Source: Oscillospiraceae bacterium
Lineage (GTDB): Bacteria; Bacillota; Clostridia; Oscillospirales; CAG-272
NCBI GenBank assembly: GCA_015063955.1
Contig: SVTD01000003.1
Span: 1 to 64,000, forward strand
Length of the DNA: 64,000 bases
Reading direction: 5' to 3'
The position numbers were made by a program, and so were the translations under genes. The notes beneath the pieces were generated by a model, which searched no databases, had not been told where the DNA came from, and saw only the letters and a program-made list of their open reading frames with translations. How positions within the stretch are numbered: the stretch's first letter is position 1; each line of letters opens with the position of its first letter. This document shows, piece by piece, positions 6,381 through 60,278 of the stretch.

Positions 6381-6386
6381 TTGCTA

Positions 6387-6598
6387 TCGGTAGAGGTGCA
6401 TTATGCCAAAAGTATTGCAGATGTAAGGGGTGACCGCCCGTTGTCTGTAAAAAAGGGGCAGGTGCCGAGGGCAGGCGGCGGTCTCGTCTGTGCCGGTTTG
6501 AGCGAATAAGATCGCTCCGACTGTCGCTTTTTTTGCGGAGAGCTATCTGACTATTCCCACACGGGGATTTTCGTTTGCCGACCGCTGTCGGCTTTTTT
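6387..6598 (+). promoter_or_regulatory. Lysine riboswitch (L box) leader
   Basis: The leader carries L-box hallmarks: GGTAGAGGTGC at the 5' P1/P2 junction (from 6389), AAGGGGCAGGTGCCGAGG-like core sequence (about 6453) comparable to the usual GGGG...GCCGAAG, and the 3' P1 strand GAGCTATCTGAC (about 6540-6551), which pairs with the 5' GGTAG. An intrinsic terminator ends at 6598, upstream of dapA, as in transcription-attenuating L boxes. Lysine binding should favour termination and shut off dapA-dapB-lysA. The core GCCGAGG differs slightly from the commonest form. Class assignment rests on these motifs and on the downstream pathway. Confidence 0.85.
6577..6598 (+). terminator. Riboswitch-controlled terminator
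   Basis: GCCGAC-CGCT-GTCGGC followed by six T. This is the likely off-state terminator of the L-box expression platform, about 50 nt before the dapA start. Confidence 0.85.
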
Positions 6599-50580: not shown

Positions 50581-51945
50581 ATGAGTTCTAAATCAAAAAA
50601 TAACAAAAGCGCCGGCACTATAGGGTGCATCGTACTCATGCTTATTTCATTCGGCCCGGTTATTGTGCCTCTCTTTCTCTTATTTACCGAAGCGCCCCCC
50701 GCGGTAGTGGCGGTTTTATCAGCTATAGCATTCGTTCTGATACTTTCACATCACAATAAATCATTTAAGAACGCCGGCACCGCGAAAGCAGCGCTTGATC
50801 CCAATGCCTCCGAAAAGGCTTTTGCACGCAGGATAGTCCTTTCAAGGCTGCGCGAAATGACGACGGATACCTACAGACCCGTTGCAAAAAAGCTTATCCG
50901 GGACAGATTTATCGTTTGCGGCGCTTATGCCTTGTTTATCATCCTGTTTCTTGGATTCGGCGGGCTTTACGTTTCCCGCTTATTCATAAATATTTGCATT
51001 ATTCTTGCCGTTGTGACTGAGGCGATATTTCTCTCCCTCTCTACGGAGAAATATATCGTACGGGCTATGAAAAAGAACCCTCAGAAAAAGATCACAGAGA
51101 TCGTCGGTGAGGTGACCTTCAACGACGCTGAGACTCCGAAGCTCAAGGGACGGACGGTTGCGGCCGTTCTCCTTATCCCCGTGGCACTCGGCGTTTCCCT
51201 TGCATTCAATTCAACTCCTTACATAACCACAGAGTCCTGCATTGGCGGAGTATCCGTCGTTGAATACCGTCCTGCATTTTTCGCTATGGATACGATTTCC
51301 ATCCCCGAAAAGATCGACGGAAATACCGTCGTCAGCATTGGGGAAAATGCATTCTCCGGCAACTCCTACGTAAAGGAGATCCGTCTCCCGGATACGGTCA
51401 AGGATATAGGCTCCTATGCCTTCAAGGACTGCCGCGCCCTTACAAGGATCACTCTTCCCAAAAGCCTTGAAGCCCTTGGCGGCGAAGCATTTATGGACTG
51501 CAAAAGCCTCAGCTTCATCTCGATTCCCGAGGGAGTGAAGGAGATACGAGGCAGCACCTTTGAGGGCTGCTCCGCGCTTTCAAGCATCAATCTTTGTGAC
51601 AGCATTACCGACATTCACGCGAGAGCCTTCTTCGGCTGCTCCTCTCTCAGATCCATAGATCTTCCCGAGGGCATCACAGAGATCCACGCCAATACCTTCG
51701 AGGAGTGCTCAGCTCTCCGCAGCGTGACTATTCCCGAGGGCGTTACGAGGATCGCAGCCCACGCCTTTTACGGCTGCTCCTCTCTCAGCGAGGTCAACGT
51801 GCCCGATTCCGTCAAGGAGATCGGAAGCTCCGCATTCCGTCTTTGCACCTCACTTGACGAAATAACTATCCCCAAAGACTGTATCGTTAACGAAAGAGCC
51901 TTCAAGGAAAGCCCCACAAACGTAACAAGGAAGATTCATGAATAA
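50581..51945 (+). CDS. Membrane protein with BspA-type leucine-rich repeats
   Basis: Start chosen at ATG 50581, six bases after GGAG; the track's 50569 ATG is too close to the promoter. The 454-aa protein has two N-terminal helices (IVLMLISFGPVIVPLFLLF; AVVAVLSAIAFVLIL), two more around residues 118-160, another at about 195-215, and then about seven LRR_5 repeats (residues 240-440) of the form IPEGVKEIRGSTFEGCSALS. BspA repeats mediate protein or surface binding. The gene overlaps the radical SAM gene by 8 nt, so the two are translationally coupled; it may dock the maturase substrate or product at the membrane. Confidence 0.85.
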   Translation: MSSKSKNNKSAGTIGCIVLMLISFGPVIVPLFLLFTEAPPAVVAVLSAIAFVLILSHHNKSFKNAGTAKAALDPNASEKAFARRIVLSRLREMTTDTYRPVAKKLIRDRFIVCGAYALFIILFLGFGGLYVSRLFINICIILAVVTEAIFLSLSTEKYIVRAMKKNPQKKITEIVGEVTFNDAETPKLKGRTVAAVLLIPVALGVSLAFNSTPYITTESCIGGVSVVEYRPAFFAMDTISIPEKIDGNTVVSIGENAFSGNSYVKEIRLPDTVKDIGSYAFKDCRALTRITLPKSLEALGGEAFMDCKSLSFISIPEGVKEIRGSTFEGCSALSSINLCDSITDIHARAFFGCSSLRSIDLPEGITEIHANTFEECSALRSVTIPEGVTRIAAHAFYGCSSLSEVNVPDSVKEIGSSAFRLCTSLDEITIPKDCIVNERAFKESPTNVTRKIHE

Positions 51946-53692
51946 ATTTATCCATCTTTTATACGTCCCCACGAAAAACTGCAATATGCAGTGCAGCTAC
52001 TGCTATCTCGGAGACTCAACAAGGGACGGTGACTGCGACCGCAGTCCCCTTGAGACCCTTGACTACGCAGTTCGGAAATTCAAAGAATGTGAGATAATTC
52101 CCTTTAATATCTCCCTCCACGGCGGCGAAGTCACAACCCTTTCAAAAGAGGATTTTGCCTCCCTTGTCCGTTACATAAGGGACTATTACGAAGAAAACCG
52201 CACACTTATTACGGAAAACGGCTTCAAGGTGGGAAATCCCCATATCAAAACGAACCTTTTCGGCATCGACAGGCATCTTGACGCCATAAGAGAGTATAAC
52301 GTCAGCATTAGCGGAAGCCTTGACCTGCCCCTCTCCCTTCACCGTGAATACAGACTGACAAAGGGCGGCGGCGATACCCTTCCGAAGATCCTTGAAAATA
52401 TCGCCCTCCTTGAAAGCCTGCCAAACAGGAAAAAGGTCTCTGCCACCATTTTCCGCGAGCATTTTCTCCGTATGGACGAGATGATCAGAGATATAAAATT
52501 TCTCCACGAAAGCACCTGCCTTGATATGAACGATTTCAACTTCATGATAGGCTTTGCATCATCCAATATCCACCCCTCCTGCCGCCCCCTCACTCCTCTC
52601 TCCGAGGATGAGCAGGTGGAGCTTTTCAGAAGGATGAACGAGGAGTTTGAAAACACAGACCTGAAAAAAGGACTTGACGGCGCCTGGTTTGCCGAATTTA
52701 CTCAGGCTTACTGCACAAACTGCGATCTCTGCTCGGAGAAGTTCTTTCTCCTTGAGAGAAACGGAGACGTCTACTCCTGCGTCAGAGGTCAGGGAGACCG
52801 TGACTTCTATTACGGCAACGTATACGAGGACACCCCCGAGGAGATCATGAACCGGGCAAGGCTCAAGATCTATAACGTTCACAATCTTACCCCCTTTCCC
52901 GAGGAATGCGCCGAATGCGGATATCTTCACCTTTGCAAAACGGGCTGTCCCTTCGTTAAAAAGGAATACGGCTCAGGCAAATCCTATACCTGCCGTCTGC
53001 AAAAGGAGATCTACAAGAAAAACGGCGAGGCCGAGGAGCGGGAGGCATACCCCTTCGAATATCTCAGACGCGTTCATCCGCAGCTTTGCAAGGATCATCT
53101 CCCAAAAGCAAATGCGCCTGAAAACTCTCTTGAGGATCTGATTTCAAGGGATGAAAAGCTGCAGCGTGTCTACGATCCCGATGCATTCATCCTCGTATGC
53201 GACGGTAACGAGTACCGCCTTGAGTCTCAGCTGACAAAATCCCTGCGTGATTTCATCTTTATCGGCAATCACTCAAAGATTACCCTTTATACGAGAAAGG
53301 ACGTGATAGACGCCCTTTCCGATTACCCCGTAAACAACGCCCTTTATATGATGCTTCTCAGCGGAGATACGGTGGTGTACGGTGACGAGGGACGTGAAAA
53401 GCAGGAGCATATCATGACTCATCTCATCTACAAAAGCACCCTTGCGCGCCGGGAAAGCGACAGAGAGGGATATTATAGGACAGATCTTACAAAGATACTC
53501 CGTCCCTATCTTCCCCATCTTTCAAGGGAGCGGGAAAACAATCTGTTTTTCACCACCTCTGCCCTCAGAGACTACCATTATACAAAGCAGAAAAATAACG
53601 GCTACTATCATATAGCCGCAATGGATCTGCCATTTCAGAATATAGAGTTTTACTACATCGATACGGAGGAATCAGGCCATGAGCTTCAATAA
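51938..53692 (+). CDS. Radical SAM/SPASM peptide maturase
   Basis: A 584-aa enzyme. The N-terminal radical SAM domain has the cluster motif CNMQCSYC (residues 14-21) in the context LLYVPTKNCNMQCSYCYLGD and the SLHGGEVTTL segment. The SPASM region has CTNCDLCSEKFFLLERNGDVYSC (about 260-283) and CAECGYLHLCKTGCPF (about 327-342) for auxiliary Fe-S clusters. A further ~190-residue C-terminal domain is unrecognised. SPASM maturases modify ribosomally made peptides, for example by forming thioether or C-C links. It overlaps both neighbours (8 nt upstream, 14 nt downstream), and the downstream gene encodes a small protein with a repetitive tail, the likely substrate. Confidence 0.9.
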   Translation: MNKFIHLLYVPTKNCNMQCSYCYLGDSTRDGDCDRSPLETLDYAVRKFKECEIIPFNISLHGGEVTTLSKEDFASLVRYIRDYYEENRTLITENGFKVGNPHIKTNLFGIDRHLDAIREYNVSISGSLDLPLSLHREYRLTKGGGDTLPKILENIALLESLPNRKKVSATIFREHFLRMDEMIRDIKFLHESTCLDMNDFNFMIGFASSNIHPSCRPLTPLSEDEQVELFRRMNEEFENTDLKKGLDGAWFAEFTQAYCTNCDLCSEKFFLLERNGDVYSCVRGQGDRDFYYGNVYEDTPEEIMNRARLKIYNVHNLTPFPEECAECGYLHLCKTGCPFVKKEYGSGKSYTCRLQKEIYKKNGEAEEREAYPFEYLRRVHPQLCKDHLPKANAPENSLEDLISRDEKLQRVYDPDAFILVCDGNEYRLESQLTKSLRDFIFIGNHSKITLYTRKDVIDALSDYPVNNALYMMLLSGDTVVYGDEGREKQEHIMTHLIYKSTLARRESDREGYYRTDLTKILRPYLPHLSRERENNLFFTTSALRDYHYTKQKNNGYYHIAAMDLPFQNIEFYYIDTEESGHELQ

Positions 53693-54035
53693 CCCCGAAA
53701 CCTATAACGAGATCGTTGCATACAGAATCTGTCTTCAGCTGAAGGTGAATATACCTAATCTGAACGATAGCCTCCTCACAGAGGTCTTTGACCATATAAC
53801 CGTTCCCGGAAACACCGCTCACGTTGCAAACGGGATCCTTTCCCTCTGCACAGGTCCTGACATTGTCAAGACCTTCAACGTTGAATCCTTCATTAATCCC
53901 GCAGTTACAGCTATAGGAATGTCTCTTTCAGGCATAAATATCGCAAGACAGAATAACGGCTACTCCGGCGGCGATTATTCCGGAGGCAGCTCAAACAACA
54001 ATAATAACAACAATAACAACAATAACAACGCATAA
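53679..54035 (+). CDS. Putative RiPP precursor: small protein with Gly/Tyr and poly-Asn C-terminus
   Basis: A 118-aa protein beginning 14 nt inside the maturase gene. Residues 1-85 form a helical leader-like region (MSFNNPETYNEIVAYRICLQ; PGNTAHVANGILSLCTGPDIV). The C-terminus is low-complexity: NNGYSGGDYSGGSS followed by twelve consecutive Asn (mixed AAC/AAT codons) and Ala-stop. Two YSGG units could be the modification sites. Leader-plus-core layout and tight coupling to a SPASM maturase fit a RiPP precursor. No cognate protease or transporter is adjacent. A structural partner protein with a slippage-prone tail is the alternative. Confidence 0.68.
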   Translation: MSFNNPETYNEIVAYRICLQLKVNIPNLNDSLLTEVFDHITVPGNTAHVANGILSLCTGPDIVKTFNVESFINPAVTAIGMSLSGINIARQNNGYSGGDYSGGSSNNNNNNNNNNNNA

Positions 54036-54364: not shown

Positions 54365-55951
54365 TCAGTTTCCGAGGGACTTCGTAGTCTTAACGGTAAC
54401 GTTTTCGTCAAAGCAGACGAACATCCTGTCAACGGTATCCTTCTTCATTTTAGGTGTGATAAGGCTCACGACGGGAACTATTACAAGTCCGCCCAACATA
54501 GCAAACACGCCTGAATAGAGGGAGTTTGTGAATACGAAGGAGAGAACGGGGACGTCTGCAACGGAGAATACTCCGAGAGAGATTAAAAGCTGGCACATCA
54601 TCAGCACGGTGCCGAAAATGAAGCTTGCAACAACGGACGCCTTGGTGGTCTTCTTCCAGTAGAGACCGTAGAGGAATGGTGCGAGGAACGCTCCTGCAAG
54701 AGCGCCCCAGGATACGCCCATCATCTGTGCGATAGCGGAAAAGTTGAAGGTATCCTTGAGAATGGCGATAACTGCGGAAAGAACGATAAACACCATAACG
54801 AACACGCGGAGGATAAAGAGCTTCTTCTTTTCGCTTGGAGCCTTTTTCATTGCGGGAACGATCATATCAAGGGTGAGAGTTGAGCTTGAGGTAAGTACAA
54901 GGCTTGAAAGAGTGGACATTGATGCACTCAGTACAAGCACCATAACGATGGCAATAACTACGCCGGGAAGAGTTGAGAGCATTGCGGGAACTATGCTGTC
55001 AAATACGATCATATCGCCTACCTTCTTGATAGCGGGGCTGTCTGCATAGAGACGTGCAAAGGAGCCGAGGAAGTAGCAGCCTCCGGAAACAACGATAGCA
55101 AAGACCGTAGAAATAATGGTTCCCTTTTTGATAGCGTCCTCATTCTTGATGGAATAGAACTTACCAACCATCTGAGGAAGGCCCCAGGTGCCGAGAGATG
55201 TCAGCATGACTACGAAGAAGAGGAACGTAGGCTGAGGGCCGAGGAAGGATGCAAATGCTCCGTTAAGATCGGGATTTGACTCTGCAGTATTCTGAGAAAG
55301 CTCAGCGATAGCCGCGCCAAGGCCTCCGTTGTCGGCAAGAACTGCACCGATAACGACAACGATACCGATAAGCATGATAATGCCCTGAATGAAGTCGTTG
55401 ATTGCAGTTGCCATATAGCCGCCGAAAATAACGTAAAGACCGGTAAGAAGGGCCATAACTACGATAACTACCCAGTAGGGGATGTCAAATGCAATATTGA
55501 AAAGACTGGAAAGACCGTTATAAAGAGATGCGGTGTAGGGGATAAGGAATATGAATACGATGGCGCTTGCAGCGATCTTGAGACCGTTGGATTCAAAGCG
55601 CTTGCCAAAGAAATCGGGCATAGTCTTTGATTCGATGTGCTGAGTCATAACGCGGGTGCGGCGTCCGAGAACTACCCAGGCAAGCAGGGAGCCGATAAAG
55701 GCGTTACCGAGACCGATCCACGTGGAGGCAAGGCCGAAATTCCATCCGAACTGTCCTGCGTAGCCGACAAAAACAACGGCGGAGAAATAAGACGTACCGA
55801 AGGCAAAGGCGGTAAGCCAGGGTCCAACGCTTCTGCCGCCGAGAACGAATCCGTTAACGTCGGTGGAATGCTTACGGCAATAGAGACCGATGCCTATCAT
55901 AACTGCGAAAAAAATTACAAGTAAAACTGCTGTCAGGATTTTGGTAAACAT
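54365..55951 (-). CDS. Sodium:solute symporter (SSS family)
   Basis: A 528-aa membrane protein with about 13 helices: FVLGGRSVGPWLTAFAFGTSYFSAVVFVGYAG near the N-terminus, ALLTGLYVIFGGYMATAINDFIQGIIMLIG (the sodium-site region), LPQMVGKFYSIKNE and VLVLSASMSTLSSLVLTSSSTL. This is the SSS pattern (PutP/PanF-like). Substrate is not evident; amino acids or organic acids are typical. It is downstream of the acyl-CoA ligase gene (34-nt gap), so probably under the same T-box, which would suggest an amino-acid-linked substrate. Confidence 0.92.
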   Translation of the reverse strand: MFTKILTAVLLVIFFAVMIGIGLYCRKHSTDVNGFVLGGRSVGPWLTAFAFGTSYFSAVVFVGYAGQFGWNFGLASTWIGLGNAFIGSLLAWVVLGRRTRVMTQHIESKTMPDFFGKRFESNGLKIAASAIVFIFLIPYTASLYNGLSSLFNIAFDIPYWVVIVVMALLTGLYVIFGGYMATAINDFIQGIIMLIGIVVVIGAVLADNGGLGAAIAELSQNTAESNPDLNGAFASFLGPQPTFLFFVVMLTSLGTWGLPQMVGKFYSIKNEDAIKKGTIISTVFAIVVSGGCYFLGSFARLYADSPAIKKVGDMIVFDSIVPAMLSTLPGVVIAIVMVLVLSASMSTLSSLVLTSSSTLTLDMIVPAMKKAPSEKKKLFILRVFVMVFIVLSAVIAILKDTFNFSAIAQMMGVSWGALAGAFLAPFLYGLYWKKTTKASVVASFIFGTVLMMCQLLISLGVFSVADVPVLSFVFTNSLYSGVFAMLGGLVIVPVVSLITPKMKKDTVDRMFVCFDENVTVKTTKSLGN

Positions 55952-55985: not shown

Positions 55986-57623
55986 TTACTTTGTGATCTG
56001 ACTTTCAACGAGAGTCACGCCGCCGCAGTATATCTCGCGGAGACGAGGCTTCTCAATTTTTCCTGTAGGATTGCGGGGAACGGAGGCAAAAATGATCTTT
56101 CGGGGACGCTTGTAGCGGGGAAGATCCTCGCAGAATGCGTTGATCTCATCCTCGGTAGCGCTTCCCTCCACCTTGAGCTCGATAATTGCTGCGGCGATCT
56201 CGCCGAGACGCTCGTGGGGAAGACCGATAACTGCAACGTCCTTGATCTTGTCGTTTGCACGGAGGTAATCCTCGATCTGTACGGGATAGAGATTCTCACC
56301 TCCGGAGATGATAACGTCCTTCTTACGGTCAACGAGGAAGATGAATCCGTCTTCGTCCTCCTTTGCCATATCTCCCGTCCAGAGCCAGCCGTCGTGAAGG
56401 ATCTCGGCGGTAGCCTCGGGATTCTTATAATAGCATTTCATAACGCCGGGGCCGCGGACTGCAAGCTCGCCCACCTCGCCACGCTCAACGGGTGTTCCGT
56501 CGGGGCGGATGATGGCGGTTTCCCAATGGTATCCTGCGATACCGATGGCGCCAACCTTATGGATGTTCTCAACGCCGAGATGCACGCATCCGGGGCCGAT
56601 GGACTCTGAAAGACCGTAGTTCGTATCGTAATCGTGGTTCGGGAACTGCTCCTTCCAGCGCTTGATAAGGCTGGGGGGAACGGGCTGAGCACCTATGTGC
56701 ATAAGGCGCCACTGGGATAGTCTGTATTCCTTCGGATCAATATCGCCACGGTCGATGGCATCAAGAATATCCTGAGCCCACGGAACGAGGAGCCATACGA
56801 TGGTTGCTTTTTCCTCGCTGACAGCCTGCATGATCCATTCGGGGCTGACACCTCGGAGGATAACTGCCTTACTTGCGGAAAGGAGGCTTCCGAACCAGTG
56901 CATCTTAGCACCTGTATGGTAGAGGGGAGGAATGCAGAGGAAAACGTCGTCTCTTGTCTGGGAATGGTGACGCTGCTCAGTCTCGCAGGAGCAGATAAGC
57001 GCGCGGTGGGCGTGGAGGATGGCCTTAGGAAAGCCCGTAGTACCCGATGAGAAGTAGATTGCAGCATCGTCATCCTCGGTGATGGTTACAGGAGGGGGAG
57101 TCGACGTGCAGTAGGTGGAGTATACCGTATAGCTGTCAGCTCCCTCGGGAACGTCGTTACCCACGAAGAAGAAATTCTTGATGCCGCAAAGCTGATCCTT
57201 CACGGCTGCCACACGGTCGATAAACTCGGGACCGTATATGAGCATACAGGAATCGGAAAGATCAAGACAGTATTTGATCTCGTCTGCTGTATAGCGGTAG
57301 TTCATGGGAACTGCAAGGGCGCCGCATTTGAGGATACCGAAGTATACGGGCAGCCATTCAAGGCAGTTCATAAGAAGTATGGCCACCTTATCGCCCTTTT
57401 TGATTCCGCGGGTGAGAAGAAGGTTTGCACAGCGGTTTGCCTGACGGTCGAAATCCTTCCAGGTCATGGTGCGGCGGTATTTGTCACCTTCTGCAGTTTC
57501 GATAAGATTGTATTCTCTCCAGGTAGTAGTCTTGGAGGGCTGATTTGCAGGGTTTATCTCAACGAGCGCCTCGTCGTTAGGATAAAGTCTTGCGTTTTTT
57601 TCAAGTACGTCAACGATTGTCAT
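55986..57623 (-). CDS. AMP-binding acyl-CoA synthetase-like ligase
   Basis: A 545-aa member of the ANL superfamily that activates a carboxylate as acyl-AMP and usually transfers it to CoA. Motifs: IYFSSGTTGFPKAILHAHRA (A3 phosphate loop), NYGLSESIGPG, GWLWTGDMAKEDEDGFIFLVDRKKDVIISGGENLYP (A7/A8 hinge) and the C-terminal PTGKIEKPRLR with the adenylation Lys. Length and motifs fit medium/long-chain or aryl-CoA ligases. Substrate unknown. It lies 40 nt after a complete T-box leader, so its expression should respond to an uncharged tRNA, which is unusual for this family. Confidence 0.92.
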   Translation of the reverse strand: MTIVDVLEKNARLYPNDEALVEINPANQPSKTTTWREYNLIETAEGDKYRRTMTWKDFDRQANRCANLLLTRGIKKGDKVAILLMNCLEWLPVYFGILKCGALAVPMNYRYTADEIKYCLDLSDSCMLIYGPEFIDRVAAVKDQLCGIKNFFFVGNDVPEGADSYTVYSTYCTSTPPPVTITEDDDAAIYFSSGTTGFPKAILHAHRALICSCETEQRHHSQTRDDVFLCIPPLYHTGAKMHWFGSLLSASKAVILRGVSPEWIMQAVSEEKATIVWLLVPWAQDILDAIDRGDIDPKEYRLSQWRLMHIGAQPVPPSLIKRWKEQFPNHDYDTNYGLSESIGPGCVHLGVENIHKVGAIGIAGYHWETAIIRPDGTPVERGEVGELAVRGPGVMKCYYKNPEATAEILHDGWLWTGDMAKEDEDGFIFLVDRKKDVIISGGENLYPVQIEDYLRANDKIKDVAVIGLPHERLGEIAAAIIELKVEGSATEDEINAFCEDLPRYKRPRKIIFASVPRNPTGKIEKPRLREIYCGGVTLVESQITK

Positions 57624-57668
57624 ATGGGTTTCCTTTATATAAATAAAAAATAATTACAATTAAAAAAC

Positions 57669-57702
57669 AAAAAAGCCTCTTGAAACAGTCGTTTCAAGAG
57701 GA
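57669..57702 (-). terminator. T-box terminator
   Basis: An 11-bp stem (CCTCTTGAAAC / GTTTCAAGAGG) and CTTTTTTG tail on the minus strand; the off-state terminator of the T-box. Confidence 0.88.
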
Positions 57703-57929
57703 CGGAAAATCCGCGGTACCACCTCAATTGCCTGTAAGGCCACTCAAAGCACGGCATAAGCGATGCTCGTCTGCTGTAACGGGCAGACCCGTCAACCCCT
57801 ACTCAGTTTCGGGACGAAGCTCTCGGAATGTATTTCGAAAAAGGGACTCTTACCGCCTTTCACCAACCGACGGCTCTCTGAAAGAGCAAAACCTTTACTA
57901 CTTATTTCCGGTCATTGCCTTTTAACTTG
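57669..57929 (-). promoter_or_regulatory. T-box riboswitch leader
   Basis: Minus-strand leader with the T-box sequence AGGTGGTACCGCGG (about 57710-57724), which pairs with the tRNA acceptor end, followed by the terminator CCTCTTGAAAC-GACT-GTTTCAAGAGG and a T-run. Upstream elements fit stem I: AGTA-type specifier-loop side (AAGTAGTAAAGG), AGAGAG with GGTTGGTG-like apical motif, and GAGAGCTTCG further on. The specifier loop seems to contain GAAATACATT; UAC (Tyr) is a tentative reading. Uncharged tRNA would prevent termination and switch on the ligase-symporter operon. Confidence 0.9.
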
Positions 57930-57935
57930 TTTAGT

Positions 57936-57964
57936 AGTTTATCACAATAAAGTACTGATGTCAA
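57936..57964 (-). promoter_or_regulatory. Promoter of the T-box operon
   Basis: Minus-strand TTGACA, 17 bp, TAAACT; transcript start expected near 57929. Confidence 0.75.
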
Positions 57965-58023
57965 GTCTTTTTTTATAAAAACCGACAATATTTATTTTTC
58001 AAAAAAGAGAGAACTCCAAAAGG

Positions 58024-58057
58024 AAGGAGCCGTCGCATCCGGATGCGACAGCTCCTT
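58024..58057 (-). terminator. Terminator after DUF1508 gene
   Basis: AAGGAGC.GTCGCATCC / GGATGCGAC.GCTCCTT stem with one internal mismatch; minus-strand tail CCTTTT. Confidence 0.8.
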
Positions 58058-58064
58058 CACTTTT

Positions 58065-58433
58065 TTATTCTGCTTCTACGATCTCAGCGTCGGGAGCGTT
58101 CTTTTTAACGCTTGCAATGCCGTTTTCGCAGCTTGCCTTTGCCTTGTAGCCTTCGCCTGTTGCGATGATCTCGCCGTTCTTTGCCTTGAGACGGAAGCGG
58201 TACTCGCCTGCCTTGTCCTGATAAAGCTCGAACTTAGGATGCTTAACGGCAACAACGGGATCCTGTGTCTGATCCTCGATCTCGCCTACGCAGTTGTTCT
58301 TAACGGATTTGATTCCGTTAAGGCAAGCAGCCTTTGTTGTGTAGACCTCACTTGTTGCGATAACCTCGCCGTTACCTGCCTTAAGATCGAACTTGAAGCC
58401 GGTAGCAGTTTCCTTAACTACGAATTTTCCCAT
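58065..58433 (-). CDS. DUF1508 (YegP-type) tandem-repeat protein
   Basis: A 122-aa protein of two DUF1508 repeats: FKFDLKAGNGEVIATSEVYTTKAACLNGIKSVKNN (about residues 12-47) and YRFRLKAKNGEIIATGEGYKAKASCENGIASVKKN (about 77-112). This small beta-alpha domain is widespread (YegP in E. coli) with no firm biochemical role. It has a consensus promoter, strong ribosome-binding site and terminator, indicating a well expressed monocistronic gene. Confidence 0.92.
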   Translation of the reverse strand: MGKFVVKETATGFKFDLKAGNGEVIATSEVYTTKAACLNGIKSVKNNCVGEIEDQTQDPVVAVKHPKFELYQDKAGEYRFRLKAKNGEIIATGEGYKAKASCENGIASVKKNAPDAEIVEAE

Positions 58434-58547: not shown

Positions 58548-58655
58548 TAGACTGCTTTATGTGCTTTTGATATCTCAGTGTTTTTTATAAGATTATTGAT
58601 TTATCCTGCTATTTGCGTTAAAATAGAAATATATTTGTGTAAGGAAAGGTATTAT

Positions 58656-60278
58656 ATGATCAAAACGGCACTGGCAATCGGCAGATGGATGCCTATCCAT
58701 CTTGGACACAAGCAGTTTCTCACAGACCTTGCAAGAAAGTTTGACAGGCTCGTTATAGGAATCGGCTCGTGCTACGAAAACGGCACCCCCAGAAACTGCA
58801 TCCCCGCTATCGAAAGAGAGAAGCTTTTGAGAAGGATATTCAAAAGCGAGGGACTCACAAACGTGATAATCGTTCCGGTGGAGGACAGACCCACCTTTGA
58901 GGAATGGTTTTCTGACGTTATCAAGCTTTGCGAAAAATACGACGTCACCCATTTCTGCACCGGAAACAAGGAGGATATCCTGAACGTAATGAAGGAAAAG
59001 GACCTTACTCTGAATGCAGAAATGATAAATCCCGAGGATAAAAGCAACTTTCCCTATCATGCAACTGACGTTCGCAACGCTATCCTCAGAGGAGACATGG
59101 AGCTTGTGGATTCAATGCTCCCCTCGGAGATAAAGGATATGGTCCTCAGTCAGGTGGCAAGGGAGATACGTATGGCTTCCGAGGGACGGGGACAGGAGTT
59201 CATTCCCGGAAGGCAGACGGTGGATCTCATATTCATCGTCACACAGAAGAGCACGGCAAATCATTATCTTCTCATAGGAAAAAGGAACGGCGAAAAGATA
59301 GATTTCCCCGGATGCTGGGGTATTCCCGGAGGAAAGATACTGGAGTTTGAATCTCCCGTGGATGCCGCCGTCAGATGCTTTGAGATGGAGGCAGGCATAG
59401 ATATCCGCGTGGCGGACAACAGCTGCGAGCCTGCTCTTGTTACCGTGGAGAGTCTTGACGGGATGGAAAGCCTTTTGCATTTTTCGGGAATATACGCATC
59501 GGAGGACGAGCGCATAAACGGGACCCGCGGAGGCGGCTCCCAGTGCTTTGCTGTCTGCGTTGAGGGGGACGTTTCTGAAATCTCCCGCCTTCTTCACTCA
59601 AGACACGATATGGACGAGCTTAAATTTATCGACGTCGACAGCATCCACTCCATTGAGCTGGCGTACGACCAGAAGAGGATGGTACTTGATGCTCTGAATA
59701 AGCTTGGCATAGCATACGATAACGGAGAGATGCTCTGTACCCTTGACGAGAACGGTGTCGCCCTTCGTGAGGGAGTATCCAGATCCCGCGCCCACAGCGA
59801 GGGCATCCTTCACGGAGCTGCTCACACCTACATATATAAGTGGGAGGAGGAGGAGCTCTACATCCTTCTCCAGCGCAGAAGCCTCAATAAGGACAGCTTC
59901 CCCGGCTGCCTTGACTCTTCAAGTGCAGGGCACATAGAGCTTGGCTCAGACTTTTTGCAGACAGCCAAAAAGGAGCTTTTTGAGGAGCTGGGACTTGAGG
60001 CAGGCGAGGAGCTTTTCCGGGAGCTTTTTGAGCAGAGGATCCATTCGGAAAACGTTTTCCACGGCAGAGCCTTTATCGATAACGAGATCAACAAGGTCTA
60101 CGCGATAGAAATGCCCGTGGATATATCGACCCTTGCGTTTCAGCCCTCCGAGGTATCTGAGGTAGTATGGCTGAGCGCAGACCGCATACTTGCAATGCTC
60201 ACATCCGGAGACGGCGAGCTTTGTATGGATGATGCCGAAATAAAAAGGGTTATTGAAATTCTTAAAGAGAAAAAATAG
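58656..60278 (+). CDS. NMN adenylyltransferase-like domain fused to two Nudix domains
   Basis: A 540-aa three-part protein starting at ATG 58656 (AAGGAAAGGTATTAT in front). Residues 1-175: nucleotidylyltransferase with AIGRWMPIHLGHKQF (HxGH) and an FPYHATDVRNAI-like ISTTxxR position, as in archaeal-type NMNAT. Residues ~185-340: a Nudix domain whose box (GIPGGKILEFESPVDAAVRCFEMEAGI) lacks parts of the REUxEE motif. Residues ~385-540: a second Nudix domain of isopentenyl-diphosphate-isomerase-like type (SSAGHIELGSDFLQTAKKELFEELGL) with EE kept. NMNAT-Nudix fusions are known in NAD turnover; the second Nudix domain is unusual. Confidence 0.85.
   Translation: MIKTALAIGRWMPIHLGHKQFLTDLARKFDRLVIGIGSCYENGTPRNCIPAIEREKLLRRIFKSEGLTNVIIVPVEDRPTFEEWFSDVIKLCEKYDVTHFCTGNKEDILNVMKEKDLTLNAEMINPEDKSNFPYHATDVRNAILRGDMELVDSMLPSEIKDMVLSQVAREIRMASEGRGQEFIPGRQTVDLIFIVTQKSTANHYLLIGKRNGEKIDFPGCWGIPGGKILEFESPVDAAVRCFEMEAGIDIRVADNSCEPALVTVESLDGMESLLHFSGIYASEDERINGTRGGGSQCFAVCVEGDVSEISRLLHSRHDMDELKFIDVDSIHSIELAYDQKRMVLDALNKLGIAYDNGEMLCTLDENGVALREGVSRSRAHSEGILHGAAHTYIYKWEEEELYILLQRRSLNKDSFPGCLDSSSAGHIELGSDFLQTAKKELFEELGLEAGEELFRELFEQRIHSENVFHGRAFIDNEINKVYAIEMPVDISTLAFQPSEVSEVVWLSADRILAMLTSGDGELCMDDAEIKRVIEILKEKK

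Follow-up and report, generated by a model that had tools for sequence, protein, structure and literature searches.

A T-box leader with a tyrosine specifier precedes the genes of an AMP-forming acyl-CoA ligase and an SSS-family sodium/solute symporter in a 64,000-nt stretch of the genome of an Oscillospiraceae bacterium from gut or rumen (GCA_015063955.1, contig SVTD01000003.1; hereafter the window, to which coordinates refer unless another contig is named, and the window genome, G000). The pairing of leader and ligase is conserved in relatives, the ligase gene occurs there in a neighbourhood with genes for indolepyruvate:ferredoxin oxidoreductase (IOR; subunits IorA and IorB, together IorAB), and IorAB is encoded in the window genome. 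We infer the substrate, the direction of flux and the response to tyrosine, and consider it probable that the operon is a tyrosine-responsive route for arylacetate salvage running through the symporter, the ligase and IorAB.

The operon lies on the minus strand and reads, in this order:

57936 to 57964, minus strand: promoter-like site TTGACA-17-TAAACT with an extended -10 TG (10/12 matches, a consensus match only)
57695 to 57924, minus strand: T-box leader RNA (RF00230, 128.5 bits, full length)
57676 to 57701, minus strand: intrinsic terminator CCUCUUGAAAC-GACU-GUUUCAAGAGG followed by a T-run (11-bp stem, 4-nt loop)
55986 to 57623, minus strand: AMP-forming acyl-CoA ligase of 545 aa, putative arylacetate--CoA ligase (Pfam AMP-binding, 241 bits)
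54365 to 55951, minus strand: SSS-family sodium/solute symporter of 528 aa, putative aryl-acid importer (Pfam SSF, 184 bits)

The promoter-like site was the sole one within 57500-58100. The symporter gene starts 34 bp past the ligase stop, and the gene past the symporter lies on the opposite strand, so the operon seems to consist of ligase and symporter only. A T-box with terminator ahead of an AMP-binding ligase and an SSS transporter had been proposed in a first-pass annotation of this DNA, and the RF00230 match, the stem-loop and the Pfam domains confirm it; the span assigned to it there (55986-57929) left the symporter gene itself (55951-54365) outside.

By all sequence tests made, the leader is a member of the T-box family. 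The covariance-model match to RF00230 (57924-57695, minus strand) exceeded the gathering cut-off across the full length of the model (positions 1-219 of 219, 128.5 bits versus a cut-off of 93, E 3.5e-28). With RF00230 T-boxes such as the tyrS leaders, which carry UAC, it shares stem I, the specifier loop, the AGAGAG motif, an antiterminator with a UGGU bulge (core AGGUGGUACCGCG) and a terminator. The terminator (57701-57676) and the 3' side of the T-box overlap directly, as expected if it competes with the antiterminator, and the last 86 nt of the leader gave a folding z-score of -2.57.

The specifier had been tentatively given as UAC (Tyr), and this reading was borne out by the helix register and by all 13 leaders found in the same genus. 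The specifier loop reads GAA-A-UAC-A; the UUCCG that follows forms a helix with the 5' CGGAA. TBDB prioritises the triplet lying 2-4 bases before the specifier bulge ends (PMC7778990), and this rule yields UAC for the window leader. Applied to other T-boxes of the window genome, it gave GUA for valS, UGG for trpB, UUC for pheST and AUC for ileS, and in a relative (locus L052) AAC for asnA; these control genes were identified by Pfam (ileS, trpB) or by protein sequence features or locus names (the rest). The helix flanking the specifier covaries in relatives (CGGGA/UCCCG, GGAAC/GUUCC, CGAAA/UUUCG and CAAAA/UUUUG versus CGGAA/UUCCG in the window). In addition, the tRNA-Tyr of the window genome has the anticodon GUA, which matches UAC, and its 3' end (...CCCCC-A-CCA) carries a discriminator A that fits the UGGU bulge. 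Thus, as read from sequence, helix register and conservation, the UAC specifier is confirmed, and from the mechanism of the T-box family antitermination by uncharged tRNA-Tyr is predicted for this leader.

An alternative reading as AUA (Ile), within GAAAUAC, was rejected because pairing of CGGAA with UUCCG puts a single base after UAC, and because the 13 genus leaders agree. A generic specifier caller produced noisy calls and was replaced by one that takes the k-turn GA and the lower helix as anchors. For several leaders the second caller did not rank the correct frame first; one of them is a second ligase leader of the window genome (G000:C44), where AUC was read by eye and is the second frame, as used for its relatives. 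Some leaders (G020:C1, G005:C43 and G011:C33:12755) gave no safe specifier reading.

Orthologues of the ligase were 68-77% identical across 80 loci, most of them in Clostridia of gut and rumen; the genomes compared are MAGs of uneven completeness. Within the genus, every leader found ahead of the orthologous ligase carried UAC (13/13, ahead of 11 full-length and 2 partial gene copies, with the duplicate members L009, L010 and L012 counted once). The mean pairwise identity of these leaders was 0.71 (minimum 0.62), so that near-identical leaders alone do not account for the conservation of UAC. Among 17 unambiguous leaders outside the genus, 13 carried UAC (two of them, L025 and L084, the latter from the cultured relative Angelakisella massiliensis, read by eye) and four UUC (Phe); L023, where 2.8 kb and another gene separate the T-box from the ligase downstream, was excluded from the counts. 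Three further leaders (L027, L029, L046) could be read as UAC or ACA. They form a clade of ligase leaders with GAAUACAG before the helix, where the register decides between the two triplets. At the remaining ligase loci outside the genus, the T-box core was not recognisable or the upstream sequence was missing. In a tree of the ligase, the Phe leaders were nested within a branch containing Tyr leaders, which indicates that the specifier moved between the two aromatic amino acids. No T-box core was recognisable at tyrS in the same relatives. That is, the Tyr T-box sits on the ligase operon and not on tyrS.

Domain matches (PF00501, 241 bits; PF13193, AMP-binding_C, 44 bits) place the ligase among the AMP-forming acyl-CoA ligases. 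It stayed under every equivalog cut-off among the NCBIfam matches listed; its substrate is therefore named by no curated family, which leaves room for other acids. The phenylacetate--CoA ligase PaaK (TIGR02155) was absent from its 25 best NCBIfam matches, so the window ligase was not assigned to PaaK; relatives encode a PaaK-like protein as well, distinct from this ligase (515 bits, below the cut-off of 646). The nearest solved relatives of the ligase are labelled fatty-acyl, feruloyl and coumarate ligases, which counts against an arylacetate substrate. Only the IOR neighbourhood and the specifiers suggest that the enzyme is an arylacetate--CoA ligase. The symporter belongs to the SSS family by Pfam (SSF, 184 bits versus a cut-off of 22.8) and fell just under the cut-off of TIGR00813 (179.8 versus 184).

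To describe the neighbourhood, we counted genes in the same strand run as the ligase at 81 loci, including the window. The symporter was found at 37/81, IorA at 27/81, IorB at 22/81, PaaK at 18/81, a tandem ACT protein at 17/81 and an aminotransferase at 6/81, all of which are lower bounds because many contigs end early. T-box operons with the whole gene set carried UAC in L025 and L033 and UUC in L037, L038 and L039. In G017, the genes are packed with overlaps in the order SSS-ligase-IorA-IorB, and ligase and IorA overlap by 4 bp. The first-pass annotation had suggested that the symporter imports, and the ligase activates, a precursor acid. Ligase runs that include IorA, mostly IorB, PaaK and ACT support this idea, and the presence of IOR in them supplies the missing step, a reductive carboxylation of aryl-CoA to arylpyruvate. 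Against the salvage reading, most of the other ligase orthologues (54 of the 81 loci) share no run with IorA and many have no recognisable T-box, and some runs contain PaaK as a second ligase, which this reading does not explain.

IorAB is absent from the window operon, which holds ligase and SSS only. The window genome, searched family by family, encodes both subunits on another contig, C32 (IorA at C32:9123-10853, 695 bits versus a cut-off of 650.9; IorB, 252 bits versus 230), with no T-box core nearby. It also keeps chorismate synthase, tyrA and pheA, so that salvage would be an alternative rather than essential in this genome. In a genome of the same order that is 98% complete (G020), the ligase, IorA and VOR are present; chorismate synthase and prephenate dehydratase had no match in our search, and for prephenate dehydrogenase no match exceeded the cut-off. 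With these gaps in aromatic synthesis, G020 may obtain its aromatic residues by salvage, unless amino acids are imported.

4-Hydroxyphenylacetate and phenylacetate are common products of gut amino-acid fermenters, and IOR interconverts arylpyruvate and aryl-acetyl-CoA. We propose the following sequence of events. By analogy with the T-box family, uncharged tRNA-Tyr would pair with UAC and with the UGGU bulge and stabilise the antiterminator, the terminator would be bypassed, and read-through would allow transcription of the ligase and symporter genes. The symporter would then import an arylacetate together with sodium, most likely 4-hydroxyphenylacetate and possibly phenylacetate, and the ligase would convert it with ATP to aryl-acetyl-CoA. 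IorAB, encoded on contig C32 in the window genome and, in relatives, within the ligase operon, would use reduced ferredoxin to carboxylate this product, yielding 4-hydroxyphenylpyruvate or phenylpyruvate, from which an aminotransferase would make Tyr or Phe.

The window genome contains T-boxes ahead of two other AMP-binding ligases (G000:C7:56928-57159 and C44:3653-3875; L116, L118), a point that goes beyond the first-pass annotation. A CUC (Leu) T-box precedes a fusion of AP_endonuc_2, a TIM barrel, with AMP-binding, and an AUC (Ile) T-box precedes an XRE-cupin+AMP-binding fusion. In relatives, the former fusion is again preceded by CUC (G012, G016, G004, G013, G007, G008, G027) and the latter by AUC (G016, G004, G006, G007, G008, G002, G027, G019, G011), where several AUC readings are the second-ranked frame of the script, chosen because it keeps the GAAG/CUUC helix. 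GUA (Val) was found ahead of AMP-binding ligases in G011, G005 and G020 (sister T-boxes in relatives: L185-L206). VOR genes lie near sister T-box ligases in G005, G027 and G028, and VOR-like genes are present on contig C12 of the window genome. MbcS (methylbutyryl-CoA synthetase) was the best NCBIfam match of the Val and Ile ligases that were scanned (L185, L193), at 400-441 bits versus a cut-off of 850. MbcS of Staphylococcus aureus activates 2-methylbutyrate and isobutyrate, and isovalerate poorly (PMC10026030), which fits a separate ligase family for Leu. It feeds fatty-acid synthesis, whereas the GUA and AUC T-boxes found here point to amino acids; several of the GUA/AUC-type ligases are also fused to XRE-cupin, and the window ligase belongs to another family. 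For Leu, acid salvage may not be the whole story: the T-box runs of two relatives include a 2-isopropylmalate-synthase-like gene as well. This gene lies between T-box and TIM-barrel ligase (L185:11305-12699 and L189:4843-6297); the L185 copy was scanned, with its best match below the cut-off, and the L189 copy was called by sequence similarity.

On balance, we favour the view that T-boxes for Tyr/Phe, Leu, Ile and Val each control their own acyl-CoA ligase and form a regulon that salvages fermentation acids via IOR and VOR. If so, the specifier codon would name the acid that each ligase activates, that is, arylacetates, isovalerate, 2-methylbutyrate or isobutyrate.

The nearest solved relatives of the window ligase include feruloyl-CoA synthetase and 4-coumarate--CoA ligases, and a PaaI-type thioesterase adjoins the ligase in some relatives. 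Both would suit an operon that handles another aromatic or phenylpropanoid acid, such as phenylpropionate or a hydroxycinnamate, with a tyrosine link that is regulatory only. We consider this unlikely: IorAB in the run at about one third of the loci points to a 2-oxo acid/acyl-CoA pair and to two-carbon side chains, and the specifiers stay with Tyr and Phe, the amino acids made from arylpyruvates. It is very unlikely that the symporter imports tyrosine or another amino acid, with the ligase as a passenger acting on some unrelated acid. The pair of T-box and ligase occurs without the symporter in L013, L024, L030, L032, L041, L051 and L069, and its persistence there makes the ligase the constant partner. 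However, amino-acid transporters are often under T-box control (PMC2494555), and the best NCBIfam matches of the symporter, far below cut-off, were PutP (proline) and PanF (pantothenate).

The steps proposed for arylacetate salvage are reversible, and a pathway from Tyr to 4-hydroxyphenylacetate has been described in Clostridium (PMC13285125). Tyrosine could thus be converted via arylpyruvate and aryl-acetyl-CoA to an exported arylacetate, yielding ATP and reduced ferredoxin. Such a reverse flux is highly improbable here. The Clostridium pathway relies on a phosphotransferase together with an ADP-dependent kinase, while an AMP-forming ligase such as this one favours acyl-CoA synthesis (PMC13285125); a T-box that is on when tyrosine is scarce has the wrong sign for degradation, and import is the expected direction for an SSS symporter. 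T-boxes are known to move and to switch specificity (PMC2494555), and the leader could in principle be the remnant of a lost tyrosine gene, irrelevant to ligase and symporter. We give this almost no weight: the same pairing and specifier occur in 13 members of the genus and in distant Clostridia, and terminator and antiterminator are intact, with covarying helices. Both outcomes named in advance as speaking against a T-box-controlled salvage operon, an unrelated specifier and a leader belonging to a lost gene, were looked for and not found.

The arylacetate salvage that we favour has counterparts. For an AMP-forming ligase adjoining IOR in Bacteroides, assays of arylacetate-CoA ligase activity have been published together with a proposed biosynthetic role (PMC13285125). 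The Bacteroides and methanogen systems likewise combine an AMP-forming ligase with IorAB, and aromatic amino acids were proposed to be made from arylacetates. In contrast to these, the genes described here occur in Clostridia, with a T-box and often with a sodium symporter, PaaK and an ACT protein, and the T-box regulation supports the biosynthetic direction. The proposal also matches rumen physiology (Allison and others, cited in PMC7356843), where Leu is formed from isovalerate, Ile from 2-methylbutyrate, Val from isobutyrate and Phe from phenylacetate (PMC7356843). The rumen work consisted of tracer studies, whereas here candidate ligases, an importer and a regulator are proposed from genomes. 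While T-boxes usually control a synthetase, de novo biosynthesis or one of the usual transporters, the window leader controls an acyl-CoA ligase and an SSS symporter. One survey of T-box-controlled transporter families names ABC, APC, DAACS, LIVCS, MFS, NHAC and NSS but no SSS, and the term 'CoA' is absent from its text (PMC2494555).

T-boxes, IOR-based arylacetate assimilation and the rumen carboxylation of branched-chain acids (PMC7356843) are already known. For a T-box on an acid-activating ligase with a matching specifier, we found no description in open papers; Vitreschak 2008 and Gutierrez-Preciado 2009 may mention one. Barring such an earlier mention, what is new is the combination, T-boxes on acid-activating ligases whose specifier matches the expected amino acid. 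It is long established that branched-chain acids and phenylacetate are required by rumen and gut bacteria for growth and that these bacteria carboxylate them to amino acids. If the pattern holds, the specifier codon would predict the acid for each ligase and give a direction to the reversible IOR and VOR steps, and there would be concrete genes with which to test cross-feeding between amino-acid fermenters and fibre degraders.

Three other loci in the window deserve mention. At 51938-54035 (plus strand), the reading frame of a radical SAM/SPASM protein and a 118-aa ORF that has a Gly/Ser/poly-Asn tail overlap, an arrangement like that of a peptide maturase and its precursor. A lysine riboswitch (6383-6553, plus strand, 73.1 bits) lies ahead of ORFs that resemble dapA, dapB and lysA by sequence. 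Finally, a 566-aa protein (58578-60278, plus strand) resembles, by the look of its sequence, a nucleotidyltransferase joined to Nudix-like parts.
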